Source of the DNA: Chitinophagaceae bacterium
Lineage (GTDB): Bacteria > Bacteroidota > Bacteroidia > Chitinophagales > Chitinophagaceae
Reading direction: 5' to 3'
DNA length: 64,000 nt
Assembly: GCA_025449645.1 (NCBI GenBank)
Contig: JANWIY010000085.1
Location: 1-64,000 of the forward strand
Position 1 is the first letter of the stretch. The number at the start of each line of letters is the position of its first letter. The notes below the pieces were generated by a model. It had not been told where the DNA came from, searched no databases, and saw only the letters and a list, made by a program, of their open reading frames with translations. Shown one piece after another: positions 9,255 to 17,314 of the stretch. Both the position numbers and the translations under genes were made by a program.

Positions 9255-10751
9255 TCAGTCACTGTATTTTTCGAGTTCTTCCGCAAAACTGCGATCGTTA
9301 CTGAGATGCGGCACTTTATTTTGTCCGCCGAGTTTACCAATGGATTTCATATAATCAATGAATCCATTTTTCTTGACGGGATGGATCTGCAGGGGCTGCA
9401 GAATATTTCCGGAGATGAGATCATCATAATAAATATTTTTCGCCCGGAGATTACTATCCACTTTTCTTGCAAATGCGTGCATGTCGGCCGGACGCTGCTC
9501 AAATTCAACGAACCATTCGTGAAAAGATTTTCCTTCTCCCTGGCCCATGATAAAAGGAGCTACGGTAAACTCATTGATCTGCACGCCTTCTTCCTTGGCA
9601 GCTTTCATCAGACTGTATTCCACTTCCTCGCCGATCACATGTTCACCGAAAGCTGATATGTAATGTTTGATCCGGCCCGTCACTACGATGCGGTAAGGGC
9701 TGGTGGAAACAAACCGCAGGGTATCCCCGATATTATATCCCCAGAGTCCTGCGTTATTATTTACAATCAGCGCATAATTGATGCCGGTCTTCACATCCTT
9801 CAGTGAAACGCGTGAGGGCCTCTCCTGAAAAATTTCTGATGCCGGAATAAATTCAAAAAAAATGCCGCTGTTGCTGTTTAATAAAAGCCCTTCCTCCTGC
9901 TGACTGTCCTGAAATGCGAAAAAGCCTTCCGATGCCGGATAGGTTTCGATGGTATCCACCTGTTTTCCGATACTGTCCAGCAGGCGGTCTTTATAGGGTT
10001 CAAAATTCACACCCCCGTGAACCAGCACAGAAAAATTCGGAAAAAGATCTTTGATCTGTTTACCCGATCCTGCCATGAGCCTGTCAAAATACATCTGCAT
10101 CCAGGGAGGTATCCCGCTGATCAGGGTCATATCCTGGCTGATCGTTTCTTCCACGATCTTGTCGAGTTTGGTTTCCCATTCTTCAATGCAGTTCGTTTCG
10201 TAGCTGGGCAGCTGGTTGGTACGCAGGTAATGGGGTATATGATGATTTACGATGCCGCTGAGCCTGCCTGTTGGGATGCCGGCGATCCTTTCCAGTTCGG
10301 GGGAGCCGGAAAGAAAAATCATCTTCCCGTTGGCAAAGGCAGAATTGCCTGTTTCAGCCATATAACAAAGCAGGGCGTTCCGGGCCGTATTGATGTGATT
10401 GGAAATAGACTCTTTGGAGATGGGAATATATTTGATCCCGCTGGTTGTTCCGGAGGTCTTGGCAAAATAAATCGGCTGTCCCTTCCATAATATATTGTGT
10501 TTGCCCTGCTTGATCTGGTCGATATAAGGTTTGAATTGTTCGTAGTCACGGAGCGGAATGGCAGCTTTGAATTCCTCGTAGGTCTTAACAGTTTCCAGGT
10601 GGTGCTCCCTGCCAAAAACAGTCTTCGACCCGGTTTTCAGGAGGCTCTTCAGGATATTCTCCTGATCCTCCGGGGCGGAGCTCATTTCCTTGCGGGTACT
10701 CCTATATATATATGAAGCAAAGGGCTTGGCTAAAAATGACTTGATTTTCAT
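9255..10751 (-). CDS. GH3-family (auxin-responsive-promoter type) acyl-adenylating enzyme
   Basis: 498 residues from ATG 10751. The ORF track starts 105 codons upstream, but that extension overlaps the rplU gene and its promoter and has no family resemblance. It shows the adenylate-forming ATP motif AKTSGTTSGIKYIP near residue 90 and the central TYPASEGFFAFQ region, both typical of bacterial GH3 homologues. The physiological substrate in Bacteroidota is not known; plant relatives join amino acids to carboxylic acids. It is the first gene of the run towards dxr and rseP, and a -7 element is visible just upstream. Confidence 0.85.
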   Translation of the reverse strand: MKIKSFLAKPFASYIYRSTRKEMSSAPEDQENILKSLLKTGSKTVFGREHHLETVKTYEEFKAAIPLRDYEQFKPYIDQIKQGKHNILWKGQPIYFAKTSGTTSGIKYIPISKESISNHINTARNALLCYMAETGNSAFANGKMIFLSGSPELERIAGIPTGRLSGIVNHHIPHYLRTNQLPSYETNCIEEWETKLDKIVEETISQDMTLISGIPPWMQMYFDRLMAGSGKQIKDLFPNFSVLVHGGVNFEPYKDRLLDSIGKQVDTIETYPASEGFFAFQDSQQEEGLLLNSNSGIFFEFIPASEIFQERPSRVSLKDVKTGINYALIVNNNAGLWGYNIGDTLRFVSTSPYRIVVTGRIKHYISAFGEHVIGEEVEYSLMKAAKEEGVQINEFTVAPFIMGQGEGKSFHEWFVEFEQRPADMHAFARKVDSNLRAKNIYYDDLISGNILQPLQIHPVKKNGFIDYMKSIGKLGGQNKVPHLSNDRSFAEELEKYSD

Positions 10752-10775
10752 ATTTTCAGGCAGGCGATTGAACGA

Positions 10776-10783
10776 CAAACCTA
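10776..10783 (-). promoter_or_regulatory. Candidate -7 element of the GH3-dxr-rseP run
   Basis: The minus strand reads TAGGTTTG, an exact TAnnTTTG match, 24 bases upstream of the chosen GH3 ATG. The start choice and promoter position support each other. No clear -33 TTTG was found. Confidence 0.45.
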
Positions 10784-10842
10784 CAATAAAAGCCAATACC
10801 CCCGCCTGTGGCTTTCCGGGTCCAAGTTTTTTGCAGGAAAGC

Positions 10843-10873
10843 TTCGAAATTAACCCCAATCCCCTTACCTTTG
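10843..10873 (+). promoter_or_regulatory. Bacteroidota-type promoter of rplU-rpmA
   Basis: TTCG at 10843-10846, a 19-base spacer, then TACCTTTG at 10866-10873. This matches the TTTG-N19-TAnnTTTG consensus with one mismatch. The predicted transcript start is about 14 bases before the rplU ATG. Confidence 0.65.
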
Positions 10874-10893
10874 CAGCCCTAATATTGCATCGT

Positions 10894-11196
10894 ATGTTCG
10901 CAGTAGTACAAATCGCAGGAAGCCAGTTCAGGGTTGAAAAAGACCAGACTTTATTTGTTCCCCGCATCGAAGGGCAGACCGGGGACAAGGTAGAATTTAA
11001 AGACGTGATACTGTCCACTGCAAAAGGAAAATTTGCCATGGGCAAGGACCTCAAGCAGGTAATCAAGGCCGAAATTCTTGGCCATGTGCAGGGAGATAAA
11101 GTGATTTCTTTTAAGATGAACAGAAGAAAGGGATTCCGGAAAAAACATGGTCACCGTACCCACTATACGAAAATCAAAGTGACGGAAATCGAATAA
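10894..11196 (+). CDS. rplU: 50S ribosomal protein L21
   Basis: 100 residues from ATG 10894; the ORF track start (10690) adds an unrelated extension that crosses the promoter. The sequence MFAVVQIAGSQFRVEKDQ and the end FRKKHGHRTHYTKIKVTEI are diagnostic of bL21. It binds 23S rRNA in the large subunit. It forms the standard rplU-rpmA pair with L27, 47 bases downstream. Confidence 0.98.
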   Translation: MFAVVQIAGSQFRVEKDQTLFVPRIEGQTGDKVEFKDVILSTAKGKFAMGKDLKQVIKAEILGHVQGDKVISFKMNRRKGFRKKHGHRTHYTKIKVTEIE

Positions 11197-11243: not shown

Positions 11244-11513
11244 ATGGCACACAAGAAAGGCGAAGGCAGCGTAAAGAACGGCCGCGATTCGCAGAGTAAA
11301 AGACTCGGTGTTAAAATTTTTGGTGGCCAGGCTGCGGTATCCGGCAACATCATCGTTCGTCAACGCGGTACCGTTTATCATCCGGGAAAAAATGTAGGTG
11401 TGGGCAGAGACTTCACCTTATTTGCACTCACCGATGGTGTGGTGGAATTTAAAAAAGGAAAGGCCGACAGAACATTTGTTCACGTTCTTCCGGCACCTGC
11501 CACGGCCCAGTAA
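11244..11513 (+). CDS. rpmA: 50S ribosomal protein L27
   Basis: 89 residues. The N-terminus [20 protein letters not shown] and the [20 protein letters not shown] motif are diagnostic of bL27. It follows rplU on the same transcript. There is no N-terminal extension of the kind cleaved in Firmicutes. Confidence 0.98.
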
Positions 11514-11628: not shown

Positions 11629-11727
11629 ATGGCAACAGCAAAAAAAGCAGCTAAGAAAAAAGCAGCTCCAAAAAAGAAAGCGGCTCCGAAAAAGAAAGCT
11701 GCTAAGAAGTCTGCAAAGAAGAAATAA
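11629..11727 (+). CDS. 32-residue Lys/Ala/Pro-rich histone H1-like peptide
   Basis: This gene is too short for the ORF track. ATG 11629 opens 32 codons ending in TAA, made only of Met, Ala, Thr, Lys, Pro and Ser, with KKKAAPKKKAAPKKKAAKK as its core. This is the composition of histone H1-like (Hc1/AlgP-type) tails that bind DNA or RNA electrostatically. It has its own plausible promoter and is followed 27 bases later by a strong terminator, so it forms a complete transcription unit. It sits downstream of ribosomal genes. Nucleoid or ribosome association is inference from composition only. Confidence 0.75.
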   Translation: MATAKKAAKKKAAPKKKAAPKKKAAKKSAKKK

Positions 11728-11828: not shown

Positions 11829-13487
11829 ATGGCGGTTGACAATGCCTACATAGCAGAAAGTTTTTCCCTTCTCGCCAAACTCATGGACATCCATGGCGAG
11901 AATTCTTTTAAAACAAAATCCTACGCAATTGCTGCCTTCAACATCGATAAATTAACGGAGGACCTGACCGTGCTTGCACGCGAAAAAATCATCTCGATCA
12001 AAGGCATCGGACCGAGCATCGGTAAGCAAATCGTCGAAATAGTGGAAACCGGCGAGCTGGGTCAACTTCGGGAGATAATTCAAAAAACACCCCCCGGAGT
12101 CATCGAAATGCTCAAAATCAAGGGTCTGGGTCCAAAAAAGATTTCCACCGTCTGGAAGGAGATGGAAATCGAATCCATCGGTGAACTTATGTATGCTTGC
12201 AACGAAAACCGTCTGCTCCTTTACAAAGGTTTTGGAGAGAAGTCGCAGAATAATATTCGGGACACAATTACGTTCTATCTGAAGAGTCAGGGAAGCTTTC
12301 TCTTCGCTGAAGTGGAAGGCTATGCCCTCCAGATTCAAAAAAACCTGAGAACAGCCTTTCCGCAACACCTGATTGCCCTGACGGGCTCCTTCCGCAGGCA
12401 ACTTGAAATTGTTGATCAGCCGGAATGGGTCTGCAACATTCCGCCGTCAGAACTTTCTTCCTGTTTATCCGGAATGGAATTCCAGTCCGCGCAAACCACG
12501 AACGAAATCCTTACCGCTTCGGGGCCAGAAAATATTTCGTTGAAATTTCATTGTGTTCCCTCTGAAGCATTTTATTCAACTCTCTTTGAAACCAGCGCAA
12601 GCGAAGCTTTTCTTAGCGCCTGGAGGAAAAAATTTGCGGCGATGCCGAATCCGCCTTCGGAAGAATCCATTTTTCAGGAATCCGGTATTCCTTTCATTCC
12701 TTCAGCATTGCGTGAGGATCCTGCCATGCTGGATAGGTCCCTGAATCTCCAGTCGCTTATTCAGACTTCCGACATCAAGGGCATCATCCATAGTCACAGC
12801 AACTGGAGCGACGGATCCCAAACCATTGAACAAATGGCCAAAGCCTGCATTGAACAGGGATTTGAATACCTCGTGATCAGCGACCACAGCAAGTCGGCTT
12901 TTTATGCCAACGGGCTTTCTGAAGAACGCGTCCGGGAGCAACACCTCTATATTGATGAGCTCAACCTTCAGCTCGCACCCTTTCATATTTTTAAAAGCAT
13001 TGAGAGTGATATCCTGAACGATGGCAACCTCGATTACAACGAAGGGATCCTGGCAACATTCGACCTGGTGATTGCATCCGTGCATTCAAACCTGAAGATG
13101 AGTGAAGAAAAAGCCATGAACCGGCTGTTGCGCGCAATCGAAAATCCTCACATGCGCATCCTGGGCCATCCTACAGGCCGGTTATTACTAAGCCGCCCGG
13201 GATATCCGGTAAATCATGAGAGGCTGATTGAAGCCTGCGCTGCGCATCAGGTGGTGATCGAACTCAACGCCCATCCGCGGCGGCTGGATCTTGACTGGCG
13301 CTGGATCGATTATGCACTCCGGAAAAATGTGCTGATCTCCATCGATCCCGATGCGCATTCCATCGCAGGCTATCACGATATTCATTATGGCGTGCTGGCA
13401 GCACAGAAAGGCGGATTGCGTGCTGAACAAAATCTGAGCAGCTTTTCGCTTGAGCACATGAAAAGATTTGTCAGTGAGAAGCGTTGA
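11829..13487 (+). CDS. PolX-like protein: HhH + degenerate Pol-beta palm + PHP phosphoesterase
   Basis: 552 residues from ATG 11829 (MAVDNAYIAES; the ORF track adds 10 codons). The N-terminal helix-hairpin-helix region (about 1-150) carries IKGIGPSIGKQ and IKGLGPKKI. The Pol-X palm (about 165-270) keeps the nucleotide-binding GSFRR (T185-R190). However, the two Asp expected in DxD are Q197 and E199, and the third, expected in a VDFR-like strand, is K239 (SLKFH). The C-terminal PHP domain (about 318-552) is intact: HSHSNWSDG (H321, H323), SDHSK, ESDIL, ASVHS, LGHPTGR and DPDAH. So polymerase activity is probably lost while metal-dependent nuclease or phosphoesterase activity may remain. A role in DNA repair is inferred from the family. 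Confidence 0.9.
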   Translation: MAVDNAYIAESFSLLAKLMDIHGENSFKTKSYAIAAFNIDKLTEDLTVLAREKIISIKGIGPSIGKQIVEIVETGELGQLREIIQKTPPGVIEMLKIKGLGPKKISTVWKEMEIESIGELMYACNENRLLLYKGFGEKSQNNIRDTITFYLKSQGSFLFAEVEGYALQIQKNLRTAFPQHLIALTGSFRRQLEIVDQPEWVCNIPPSELSSCLSGMEFQSAQTTNEILTASGPENISLKFHCVPSEAFYSTLFETSASEAFLSAWRKKFAAMPNPPSEESIFQESGIPFIPSALREDPAMLDRSLNLQSLIQTSDIKGIIHSHSNWSDGSQTIEQMAKACIEQGFEYLVISDHSKSAFYANGLSEERVREQHLYIDELNLQLAPFHIFKSIESDILNDGNLDYNEGILATFDLVIASVHSNLKMSEEKAMNRLLRAIENPHMRILGHPTGRLLLSRPGYPVNHERLIEACAAHQVVIELNAHPRRLDLDWRWIDYALRKNVLISIDPDAHSIAGYHDIHYGVLAAQKGGLRAEQNLSSFSLEHMKRFVSEKR

Positions 13488-13494
13488 AAGAAAG

Positions 13495-13560
13495 GGTTGA
13501 TGGATATCAGGTGCGACTCCGCAACAGGAGTCCATCAACCATCAGCTATCAACCATCAAC
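13495..13560. repeat. Intergenic hairpin and CATCAAC-rich repeat between convergent genes
   Basis: GGTTGATGGA (13495-13504) pairs with TCCATCAACC (13531-13540). Inside, GACTCC pairs with GGAGTC around GCAACA. It is followed by further near-direct copies of ATCAACCATCA. The element lies between the stops of two convergent genes, and its end supplies the stop codon of the minus-strand kinase. It could act as a terminator or be a small intergenic repeat family. Confidence 0.7.
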
Positions 13561-16500
13561 TATTCATGCCCGCAATTGGCAATTCAACATAAAAAGTGCT
13601 ACCCTCATTCACCGAGGTTTCAAACCAGATCCTGCCCTTGGCCTGCTCCACGATGGTCTTGCTCATGGCGAGTCCCAGGCCGGTGCCGGAGGATTTTGTA
13701 GTGAAATTCGGGGTAAATATTTTGGATTGCATTTGTTCCGGAATTCCTTCTCCATTGTCGCTTATCTTGATCCGGATGCGGTCTCCGATCAATTCCTCGC
13801 TCACACTGATCACGCATGTTTTCTTTTCATGACAGGCTTCAAAGGCATTCTGCAGCAGATTGGTGAACAGGCGGTTCAGCTGCGTCTTATCAGCGTACAC
13901 CATGATCTTGTCCCGGACCGGAACCCATTTAAAAAGCAGGTTCTCCATAGTTTCATATAAAGAGACGAGAGAAAAAAGCATTTCATGGAGATCAACGATT
14001 TCCTTTCGGGGATTTCCGATATTGGCAAACTGCGAGAAGTCTGCCGCAATCTTTGATAAATGATCGATCTGCTCTACCAGGGTCTTTGCCACGTTTGCCG
14101 TAAGCTCCTTTACATTTCCTGCATCACTGTTATTGGCTTTCTGCAGGTATTGAATACTCAGCTTCATCGGTGTCAGGGGGTTCTTGATTTCATGAGCAAC
14201 CTGCCTCGCCATTTCCCTCCAGGCACCCTCACGTTCACTCTTGGCCAACGCAGCAGCGCTCTCTTCCAGCTGCGCCACCATGCGATTGTATTCCTTGATC
14301 AGGCCGCCGATTTCGTCATTCTTTTTCCATTCGATGGCTTCGTTGGTCCTGCTCAAATTTACCTCCCTCATTTTCTCCGAGATCAGCGTAAAGGAAGAAG
14401 TAATGCGGTTGGTGAGAAAGAGTGCAATGGTGCCGGCAATAAGAAAAATGAATACATTCAGGTTCATAATGGTAACCAGGAACCTTGAAATTTCATCATT
14501 CAATTCATCCTCTGTATTGAAGGATGGAATGTTCAGATAGGCGCTCGCATGTCCTTTGCCAATGCGGACGGGACAATAAATACTCTGGAAACTGATGCCG
14601 CCCATTTTCTCCTGGTTGAAGAATTCAACAGAATTCAGCCTGTTCATATAAAAATAGGCGAGCGGATTCATCTGCTCGCTCAGAATACCCTTCGTATAAA
14701 TAAAGGGATTGGAAGAAACGATCAGGTTACCATTGAGGTCATACAGATTAATATCGGCATTATGGATCTCCGCTGTGTTGTTGATCATTTTTTCAAGATC
14801 ATCCCTGGGCACACTCAGGATGGGGTTTACAGAAAGGTCTGGCCGCTGGTATCGCGTCAGCCGGCTTTCTATCTCTGCAGTCATCACTTTAAGTGAAGCA
14901 CTCAGCCTGTCCTGGTTATTCCGGTTGTATCTGTTGATGAGAAAGAAAATCGTAGACACTCCGATCACCAGGAAAAGGAACAGGCTGACGAAAATGATTG
15001 TGGTATGGATTTGCGATCGGATGTTCAGCTGCAGATATTCTTTCAGCTGCTGCCAGTGAAGACCCGTTTGTATGAGCACCGAACTGAACCAGAATAAGGC
15101 CACGAGTATCAGAAAAGCACTGAAGAGATAAGAAAATAAAGTGATGGCCTCAATCACCAGGTTATCCTTCTTTGCGATCACAATCAGCTTGTCATCTGAA
15201 ATGCTGTGCCAAAGCTCGTCGTATCCATTATTTTTTTTCTGGTAGAAATCCTTTTTGGGGATCATGCTGTCATCCAGCTGGGTGGGGAATGGATAGTTGT
15301 TATAATAAGTGACCAGTTCATTATTGCTGTAGATGGCATAGGAATATATCGGCGAATATTCAGGGAGAAATTCCTTTCGCTGCTGGGTCAGCTGGGGCAC
15401 CAATCCTTCGCTCTTATAGCTCCTGGGTTCGGCCTGCACAAAAAGATAGCCCACAATTTTCCCTGACGGGGCCTGGATCACTTTCTTATAGATATAGCTG
15501 AATTTGTCATACGATCTCTCATAATACATCAGGTTGGGAATCGTAGTTGGTTTCCCCTGAAGTTTAAAAACCGTATTTAGGGTATCAAAGGAAACCGGAA
15601 CCTGGTTGTAGAGTGGTTTCTCAGCGGAATCATAAATATAGATCTTGGTGTCGTATTTGCTGAGATAGGCGCTAAAATTATTATTGATCAGACTGTCTTT
15701 AAGATAATGGTTCTCCGCCGGATTGCGGAAGCGGTTGAATCCACGAAGCATAAAATCGTTGTCGAAATAAATTAGCGACATGCTCACGAGTTTTTCACTG
15801 GAGGGATCTATCTGTTCTGCCAGCCGGTCGGCAAAACTCTTGCGCTGTTCCAGTTCAATTTTCCGGTTTTCAAAAATGATGATCACGGAAATGGAACTGG
15901 AGAAAATAAACAGCCAGAATAAAATTTCAGATACATTCAGCTGGTAATGAAGTCCGGAAAAAAGATTCCTCATCATGAGCCACAAATAACAAAGCAGCCA
16001 GATCAGCACGTAGATGTCAAGCTCCACAACAGCCGTTCCCGAATGAAAGGTGAGAAAGCTAAGCCCGATGGTGGCTACAAGAATAAAAACGGGCATTATT
16101 TTATTTTCGATCAGGCCGCGCACGAGGCGCAGGAGGATCTGCGTAAAAAAGAAATAGCTAAGGGCCAGTGCGGCAAGTATGATGAAACTGACAACGCTGT
16201 AAATGGTGAGGCTAAATAAATTGGTGACGTTAAAAGATATCCTGGCATCGGCCACGAGACTCTGTACGATATCCGCAAATAGAAAAGTGATGGTCACCAG
16301 AATACCCATCGCGCAAACGATCACCAGCCAGCGCTTCCAAAAACTTCTGAACCTCGGAAAGACCCATTCTCCTATTTCCTGCCTTACAAACAAAACGATC
16401 CAGCAAAACAGAAGGGCATTGATGAGGAGATCTCCAAGGGACCGGAGCACAAAATTGGAACTGTAAATGGTGGGATCAAACAATTCATATTGCCTTAAGT

Positions 16501-17314
16501 TCAGGATCTCCGGAAAGCTGTAGCTGATGGTCCTGAAAATGAGAATTGTTACGGCAAGAAAAAGAATGCCCACGATCCGGTCATATTTTTCAGCGATGGC
16601 ATGGGCCATATTGTGCACGATCACGAGCAAAACCAGCACCCCGACAAACACCACCAGAAGAAGAACCAGACTGTATTTCGCCACGTGATATGATTCTGTT
16701 CTCTGGAGATAAAAAAGCGTTTCCCCTTCCAGGTTCTTCACCGGGAAAGGCGTTGGAGCCAGAGAAATGCGAACCCGGTTTTCTGCTGATGGGAATCCGA
16801 CGAATTCGGGCTTTAGATTTTCCGGAGAAATATAATACTGCCAGCGCACGGGAATAAGAGCAATTACAGTAAGCGGATAGGGAACCACCACAAAGGAATG
16901 CTTGATGATTTCAAACTGCCCGTTGCTCAGGTTCACAAAATAATTTCCGTCTGCTTTGAGCAGCATGCTGTCTGGCAAAACGGATGACTGGTCACTCCAG
17001 AAAGTGAGGTGTTCGCTGAACGGATGGTTCCGCTCATAGATGAGGATTCCATATTGCTTATCCATCAGGTTATCCAGATCAGTACGCGAATAATTTTTAT
17101 CAGACAACCTGCGGATGAGGTTTTCATCCTTCAGCAATTGCTGAAAATCCGATTCACGCTCCTTTAAGAAAGATTCGATGGAGTTTCGCAGGATGCGTGT
17201 TGTAGATAATCCGCTGAGATAGATATTGATGAGATAGGCCGCAATGAAAAGAACGATGCCTGCAAGCATCAGGTAAACATTCCTGCGAAAAAATTTTTTG
17301 AGAAAGGCAATCAA
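13556..17314 (-). CDS. Large NtrY-like membrane sensor histidine kinase
   Basis: 1252 residues. A membrane helix at 15-32 is followed by an extracytoplasmic part, then a run of six or more membrane helices (about 210-450). A second periplasmic segment, more helices, a HAMP-like linker and the kinase follow. The acceptor motif VAHEIKNPLTPMKLSIQ places His near 1041. Further boxes are NLLQNAFEA, ISDNGEGIP, FTTKSSGTGLGLAM and GSTFYVELP. This large architecture recurs in Bacteroidota as an NtrY-like kinase; the signal is unknown and no response regulator adjoins. The start is TTG 17314, whose last two bases open the mazG stop codon (TTGA), implying coupled translation. Confidence 0.9.
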   Translation of the reverse strand: MIAFLKKFFRRNVYLMLAGIVLFIAAYLINIYLSGLSTTRILRNSIESFLKERESDFQQLLKDENLIRRLSDKNYSRTDLDNLMDKQYGILIYERNHPFSEHLTFWSDQSSVLPDSMLLKADGNYFVNLSNGQFEIIKHSFVVVPYPLTVIALIPVRWQYYISPENLKPEFVGFPSAENRVRISLAPTPFPVKNLEGETLFYLQRTESYHVAKYSLVLLLVVFVGVLVLLVIVHNMAHAIAEKYDRIVGILFLAVTILIFRTISYSFPEILNLRQYELFDPTIYSSNFVLRSLGDLLINALLFCWIVLFVRQEIGEWVFPRFRSFWKRWLVIVCAMGILVTITFLFADIVQSLVADARISFNVTNLFSLTIYSVVSFIILAALALSYFFFTQILLRLVRGLIENKIMPVFILVATIGLSFLTFHSGTAVVELDIYVLIWLLCYLWLMMRNLFSGLHYQLNVSEILFWLFIFSSSISVIIIFENRKIELEQRKSFADRLAEQIDPSSEKLVSMSLIYFDNDFMLRGFNRFRNPAENHYLKDSLINNNFSAYLSKYDTKIYIYDSAEKPLYNQVPVSFDTLNTVFKLQGKPTTIPNLMYYERSYDKFSYIYKKVIQAPSGKIVGYLFVQAEPRSYKSEGLVPQLTQQRKEFLPEYSPIYSYAIYSNNELVTYYNNYPFPTQLDDSMIPKKDFYQKKNNGYDELWHSISDDKLIVIAKKDNLVIEAITLFSYLFSAFLILVALFWFSSVLIQTGLHWQQLKEYLQLNIRSQIHTTIIFVSLFLFLVIGVSTIFFLINRYNRNNQDRLSASLKVMTAEIESRLTRYQRPDLSVNPILSVPRDDLEKMINNTAEIHNADINLYDLNGNLIVSSNPFIYTKGILSEQMNPLAYFYMNRLNSVEFFNQEKMGGISFQSIYCPVRIGKGHASAYLNIPSFNTEDELNDEISRFLVTIMNLNVFIFLIAGTIALFLTNRITSSFTLISEKMREVNLSRTNEAIEWKKNDEIGGLIKEYNRMVAQLEESAAALAKSEREGAWREMARQVAHEIKNPLTPMKLSIQYLQKANNSDAGNVKELTANVAKTLVEQIDHLSKIAADFSQFANIGNPRKEIVDLHEMLFSLVSLYETMENLLFKWVPVRDKIMVYADKTQLNRLFTNLLQNAFEACHEKKTCVISVSEELIGDRIRIKISDNGEGIPEQMQSKIFTPNFTTKSSGTGLGLAMSKTIVEQAKGRIWFETSVNEGSTFYVELPIAGMNS

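Follow-up and report, generated by a model that had tools for sequence, protein, structure and literature searches.

A noncanonical PolX-family protein with an altered catalytic triad and an intact PHP nuclease domain from a Chitinophagaceae bacterium

What is the role of a PolX protein whose palm domain has lost the catalytic aspartates while its nuclease domain is intact? The question is raised by a gene located in a 64,000-nucleotide stretch of contig JANWIY010000085.1 from a Chitinophagaceae bacterium (referred to as the window). The open reading frame runs on the + strand from the ATG at 11829 to the stop at 13487 and codes for a protein of 552 amino acids. All domains lie on the same strand: the N-terminal 8 kDa domain (residues 1-77; 11829..12059), the helix-hairpin-helix (HhH)/thumb region (residues 78-150; 12060..12278), a degenerate palm domain (residues ~151-252; 12279..12584), truncated fingers (residues ~253-275; 12585..12653) and the PHP nuclease domain (residues 314-552; 12768..13484). 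Pfam analysis revealed HHH_8 (4-77), HHH_5 (93-143) and PHP (321-420) above cut-off, and reported no palm or fingers family in the window protein. The nearest NCBIfam model is PolX NF006375, with a score of 397 bits, which is under its cut-off of 426 bits. The best PDB matches were D. radiodurans PolX 2w9m (E=6e-83), followed by T. thermophilus PolX (~2e-58). The region 11829-13487 encodes a noncanonical bacterial PolX, which is ordinary for its host.

Homologues were collected from 60 relatives, 80 loci of named genomes and 90 loci selected after searching 396 genomes across the phylum; the first two sets overlap, so a few genes were fetched twice. By the triad columns, 162 sequences are altered, among them D. 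radiodurans PolX (AEE), and 52, including T. thermophilus PolX, carry three acidic residues; since the sequences were sampled, this ratio should not be read as a frequency. A preliminary description of the locus had placed Q197-P-E199 at the expected Asp-x-Asp and K239, within SLKFH, at the third Asp, and had proposed aligning the Asp columns of homologues and modelling the palm as checks. Alignment with canonical PolX of the same genus bore this assignment out: the three catalytic columns hold Q197, E199 and K239 (Q197-P198-E199 at 12417..12425 and K239 at 12543..12545, + strand). The Asp triad for two-metal nucleotidyl transfer, characteristic of canonical PolX, is thus absent, and the replacement of at least one catalytic acidic residue by a non-acidic one, characteristic of noncanonical PolX, is seen in Q197 and K239. 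The register of the third column, LKFHCVPSEAFYS / VDLRLVTDREYGS, is shared by the canonical copies and the T. thermophilus and D. radiodurans enzymes. S237, suggested for this column by the VD-x-R pattern alone, was rejected, as the wider register places K239 there. The closest relative (87%) likewise has QEK, and the full triad is absent from all 162 altered homologues. Together, the homologues and the closest relative rule out sequencing or assembly error, or chance, as the cause.

The alignment is anchored by five relatives of the same genus that own a second PolX with the canonical DDD triad (L113 in G010, L114 in G031, L115 in G015, L116 in G026 and L117 in G027), which excludes a misplaced triad. 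The palm of these second copies reads GSLRR...GDIDI...QVDLR...YFTGSxEHN; the copy in G031 is cut by the contig end. A second PolX, of the canonical type, was not found in the host genome, a 3.59 Mb draft assembly that is 86% complete. The Chitinophagaceae with one canonical and one noncanonical copy would be a natural place to ask how both divide the work. Among the canonical sequences, we also noted L198 and L199 (G380 and G423, genomes outside the class), with two canonical PolX copies each on separate branches.

An AlphaFold2 model of the window protein was obtained with a mean pLDDT of 90.1 and a pTM of 0.77. All seven PolX chains headed the Foldseek list, and the best full-length superposition was that with 3au6, T. 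thermophilus PolX with primer/template and ddGTP (TM 0.84, rmsd 4.2 Å, 569 columns). The model and the alignment bear on the possibility that the protein is a true polymerase, with a misaligned triad or with an alternative acidic set that gives residual polymerization. E199 does occupy the second Asp column and D196 adjoins the first, and an early report claimed polymerase activity for D. radiodurans PolX (AEE); however, Prostova et al. could not reproduce that activity (PMC9226535). The acids near the first Asp pair are just E193, D196 (in a Gly column) and E199, and the modelled strand 237-242 (SLKFHC), the expected bearer of the third Asp, contains no acidic residue, which makes a shifted triad improbable. 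A shifted or alternative triad was rejected on the basis of the DDD paralogues, which fix the register, and the listing of acidic residues. Moreover, the fingers have lost the dNTP-site motif and ~15 residues. We consider polymerization by this protein very improbable.

The fingers interval, which like the palm interval below follows our own definition and not the domain boundaries of PMC9226535, has 23 residues in the window protein versus 38 in T. thermophilus PolX and ~45 in the canonical relatives. Its mean length is 24.6 residues for the altered set versus 45.0 for the canonical one, a difference of ~20 residues. The dNTP-site motif YFTGSxxHN is degenerate, reading FETSASEAF versus YFTGSREHN in the canonical paralogue. 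The palm interval from GSxRR to the fingers is 68 residues in the window protein and 71 in T. thermophilus PolX (canonical mean 72.9, altered mean 69.3). By this proxy the palm of the window protein is ~4-5 residues shorter than the canonical one, near the published 77-residue cut-off, and would probably fall outside the strongly palm-truncated forms; a truncated palm (<77 residues) is optional among noncanonical PolX members (PMC9226535).

The GSFRR motif, which had been described as remaining, is present at residues 186-190. In the altered clade, the Gly and both Arg are conserved, whereas the Ser is kept in only 5 of 162 sequences, with E, A, D or Q as the usual replacements. The survival of GSFRR as such is therefore partly incidental. 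As an observation in its own right, G-x-F/L-R-R (window residues 186-193, 12384-12407) stays conserved in the palm of the altered clade despite the lost Asp, and strong conservation of W200 and F261 is likewise seen in Chitinophagaceae. Across 52 diverse altered sequences, the G of the patch G-x-F-R-R-Q-x-E-I/V is kept in all 52 and its second Arg in 49. It is conceivable, though unlikely, that this patch has been repurposed, for example for holding the DNA 3′ end or phosphate for the PHP domain, with a clade-specific substrate preference.

In the case of the PHP domain, the statement that all metal ligands are intact proved correct. All nine are present (H321, H323, H353, E392, H419, H447, E478, D508 and H510) and are invariant across the 117 sequences of the first alignment, and the HHHEHHEDH set is complete in 162/162 altered sequences. 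The preliminary description had left the choice between a nuclease and a phosphoesterase. The latter alternative, in which the domain would act mainly on small molecules or 3′-phosphates and not as an exonuclease, draws on the histidinol phosphatases found among PHP domains, on a PHP fold matching E. coli YcdX, and on the 3′-phosphatase, 3′-phosphodiesterase and AP-endonuclease activities reported for PolX PHP domains (PMC9226535), which make such chemistry conceivable. Against it, the DNA-binding arm formed by the conserved 8 kDa and HhH domains points to a DNA substrate, and the noncanonical PolX proteins characterized so far are exonucleases. We therefore give the phosphoesterase alternative very little credence.

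The HhH/thumb region is the best-conserved part outside the PHP domain in the homologue alignment. Within the 8 kDa domain, the Schiff-base Lys K72 of Pol beta presumably corresponds to Q67 of the window protein (12027-12029), with K66 adjacent. This column is a poor marker even among canonical Bacteroidota PolX, where it is Asp in 31/51. The dRP-lyase activity of the window protein is doubtful, yet the column supports no conclusion. The general assumption that PolX proteins keep this activity deserves testing.

Phylogenetic analysis of 85 sequences placed a single branch (SH-aLRT 99) between the altered and the canonical PolX. The tree comes from a quick search with a midpoint root and has D. 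radiodurans on a long branch; for the noncanonical branch as a clade we rely on PMC9226535. From canonical to diverse altered sequences, the mean column entropy increases from 1.54 to 2.83 bits in the palm and from 1.13 to 2.99 bits in the fingers, and it hardly rises in the PHP domain (1.33 to 1.44 bits). Among the usable same-genus pairs, after leaving out those with saturated synonymous sites, dN/dS was ~0.19-0.30 for the palm, 0.04-0.10 for the PHP domain and 0.07-0.17 for the N-terminal arm. At the level of sequence, the palm and fingers have lost constraint and the PHP domain has not. Taken together, dN/dS and entropy indicate that constraint on the polymerase part is relaxed without leaving it free to decay, and that the nuclease is under strong purifying selection. 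This pattern also bears on the idea of a decaying or non-functional gene, which would fit the relaxed constraint in palm and fingers. That idea is at odds with the dN/dS values, which are well below 1 for each domain and speak for a maintained gene and against a pseudogene, with the frame being intact and stop-free in all full-length relatives, and with the invariant PHP ligands; we regard it as extremely improbable. In this part of Bacteroidota, selection preserves the nuclease and the DNA-binding arm, not the polymerase.

Upstream of polX are located rplU (within 10690-11196) and rpmA (11244-11513), and downstream, on the opposite strand, a large sensor kinase (13556-17314). In 109 related loci, some of them too short to show the neighbours, polX is adjoined by an rpmA-like sequence in 82 and a sensor-kinase sequence in 77. 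The recurrence of these neighbours indicates that the locus has for the most part been inherited in place. Between rpmA and polX lies a short Lys/Ala-rich frame of ~32 amino acids, MATAKKAAKKKAAPKKKAAPKKKAAKKSAKKK (11629-11727, + strand), with a histone H1-like composition, and after this frame comes a GC-rich hairpin with a T run.

Genes for Ku and for a LigD that combines phosphoesterase, ligase and polymerase domains are present in the host genome, as predicted by the published link of noncanonical PolX to end joining. Of the 60 relatives, 44 have a PolX match, and Ku was detected in 27 of these as against 3 of the 16 others (Fisher p 0.007, or 0.010 once two fragmentary matches are moved; uncorrected for kinship and incomplete assemblies). 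The direction agrees with the 49% versus 19% given for Bacteroidetes in PMC9226535. The co-occurrence of Ku/LigD with PolX is an association only. Separately, Ku was undetected in 4/5 relatives with a second canonical PolX versus 6/28 without a second copy (Fisher p 0.02, uncorrected, with some assemblies incomplete); a canonical copy may serve as a substitute in genomes that lack Ku/LigD end joining.

We propose that the window protein is a noncanonical, non-polymerizing PolX that acts as a PHP-dependent 3′-5′ exonuclease and 3′-end processor and probably backs double-strand break repair with Ku and LigD, a reading to which we assign a probability of roughly 0.93. By analogy with characterized relatives, the Pol beta-like palm could no longer bind two catalytic metals, and polymerization would be lost. 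The 8 kDa and HhH domains would steer the protein to gaps, nicks or broken ends. There the PHP domain, a putative metal-dependent (probably Mn2+) 3′-5′ exonuclease with 3′-end and AP-site processing, would trim or clean the 3′ ends. Family evidence and conserved residues make DNA binding and nuclease activity most likely, and the gene co-occurrence leads us to infer a part in end joining, probably as support of double-strand break repair alongside Ku and LigD. A dedicated nuclease with an HhH arm, as suggested in the preliminary description, is hence the best supported reading, consistent with the lost triad, truncated fingers, relaxed palm, kept PHP domain and conserved HhH region, and it matches the Deinococcus biochemistry (PMC9226535). 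The suggestion needs to be amended in one respect: the class is already named, published and normal in Bacteroidetes.

Prostova et al. (NAR, 2022; PMC9226535) reported that noncanonical PolX make up 27.5% of prokaryotic PolX, fall mostly into one cluster from Bacteroidetes and Deinococcus-Thermus, and are the usual PolX of Bacteroidetes. Their altered triads are of 302 kinds, with a shortened palm or fingers and decayed dNTP sites, and the PHP consensus HHHEHHEDH is found in 98% of them. The PolX of D. radiodurans and D. gobiensis had no polymerase activity and a strong Mn2+-dependent 3′-5′ exonuclease activity, which was abolished by PHP ligand mutation. In three Bacteroidetes species, the altered PolX genes were verified by Sanger sequencing. 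A 2026 survey of bacterial DNA polymerases, in which the PHP site was intact in 95% and the polymerase site in 75% of PolX1 (PMC12926913), agrees with this view. Our search of the open-licence literature turned up no biochemical work on a noncanonical PolX from Bacteroidota. The phenomenon is already described for the host phylum, so its surprise value is low; the far larger, independent genome set used here confirms that PolX in this part of Bacteroidota commonly takes the noncanonical form. As a matter of annotation, PolX proteins of this kind should not carry the name DNA polymerase.

Compared with known systems, the window protein agrees with the noncanonical PolX of PMC9226535 in its altered triad, its shortened fingers and degenerate dNTP site, the preserved HHHEHHEDH set and 8 kDa/HhH region, the phylum of its host, the presence of Ku/LigD in the genome and its place on a common branch, and there is no difference of substance. 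With D. radiodurans PolX (2w9m) it has in common the absence of the Asp triad, the intact PHP domain and the domain order. The two differ in the triad (AEE in D. radiodurans versus QEK), the fingers (37 versus 23 residues) and the palm interval (63 versus 68), with ~31% identity in the structure alignment. The canonical PolX (T. thermophilus 3au2/3au6 and the same-genus L113, L115, L116 and L117) have the same fold and domain order, but carry the DDD triad, the YxTGSxxH fingers motif and longer fingers. The PolX-like PHP proteins of Actinobacteria (PMC12926913) are close PolX relatives without polymerase function, as we propose for the window protein; they are missing the entire polymerase region and a portion of the 8 kDa domain, whereas the window protein retains the palm.
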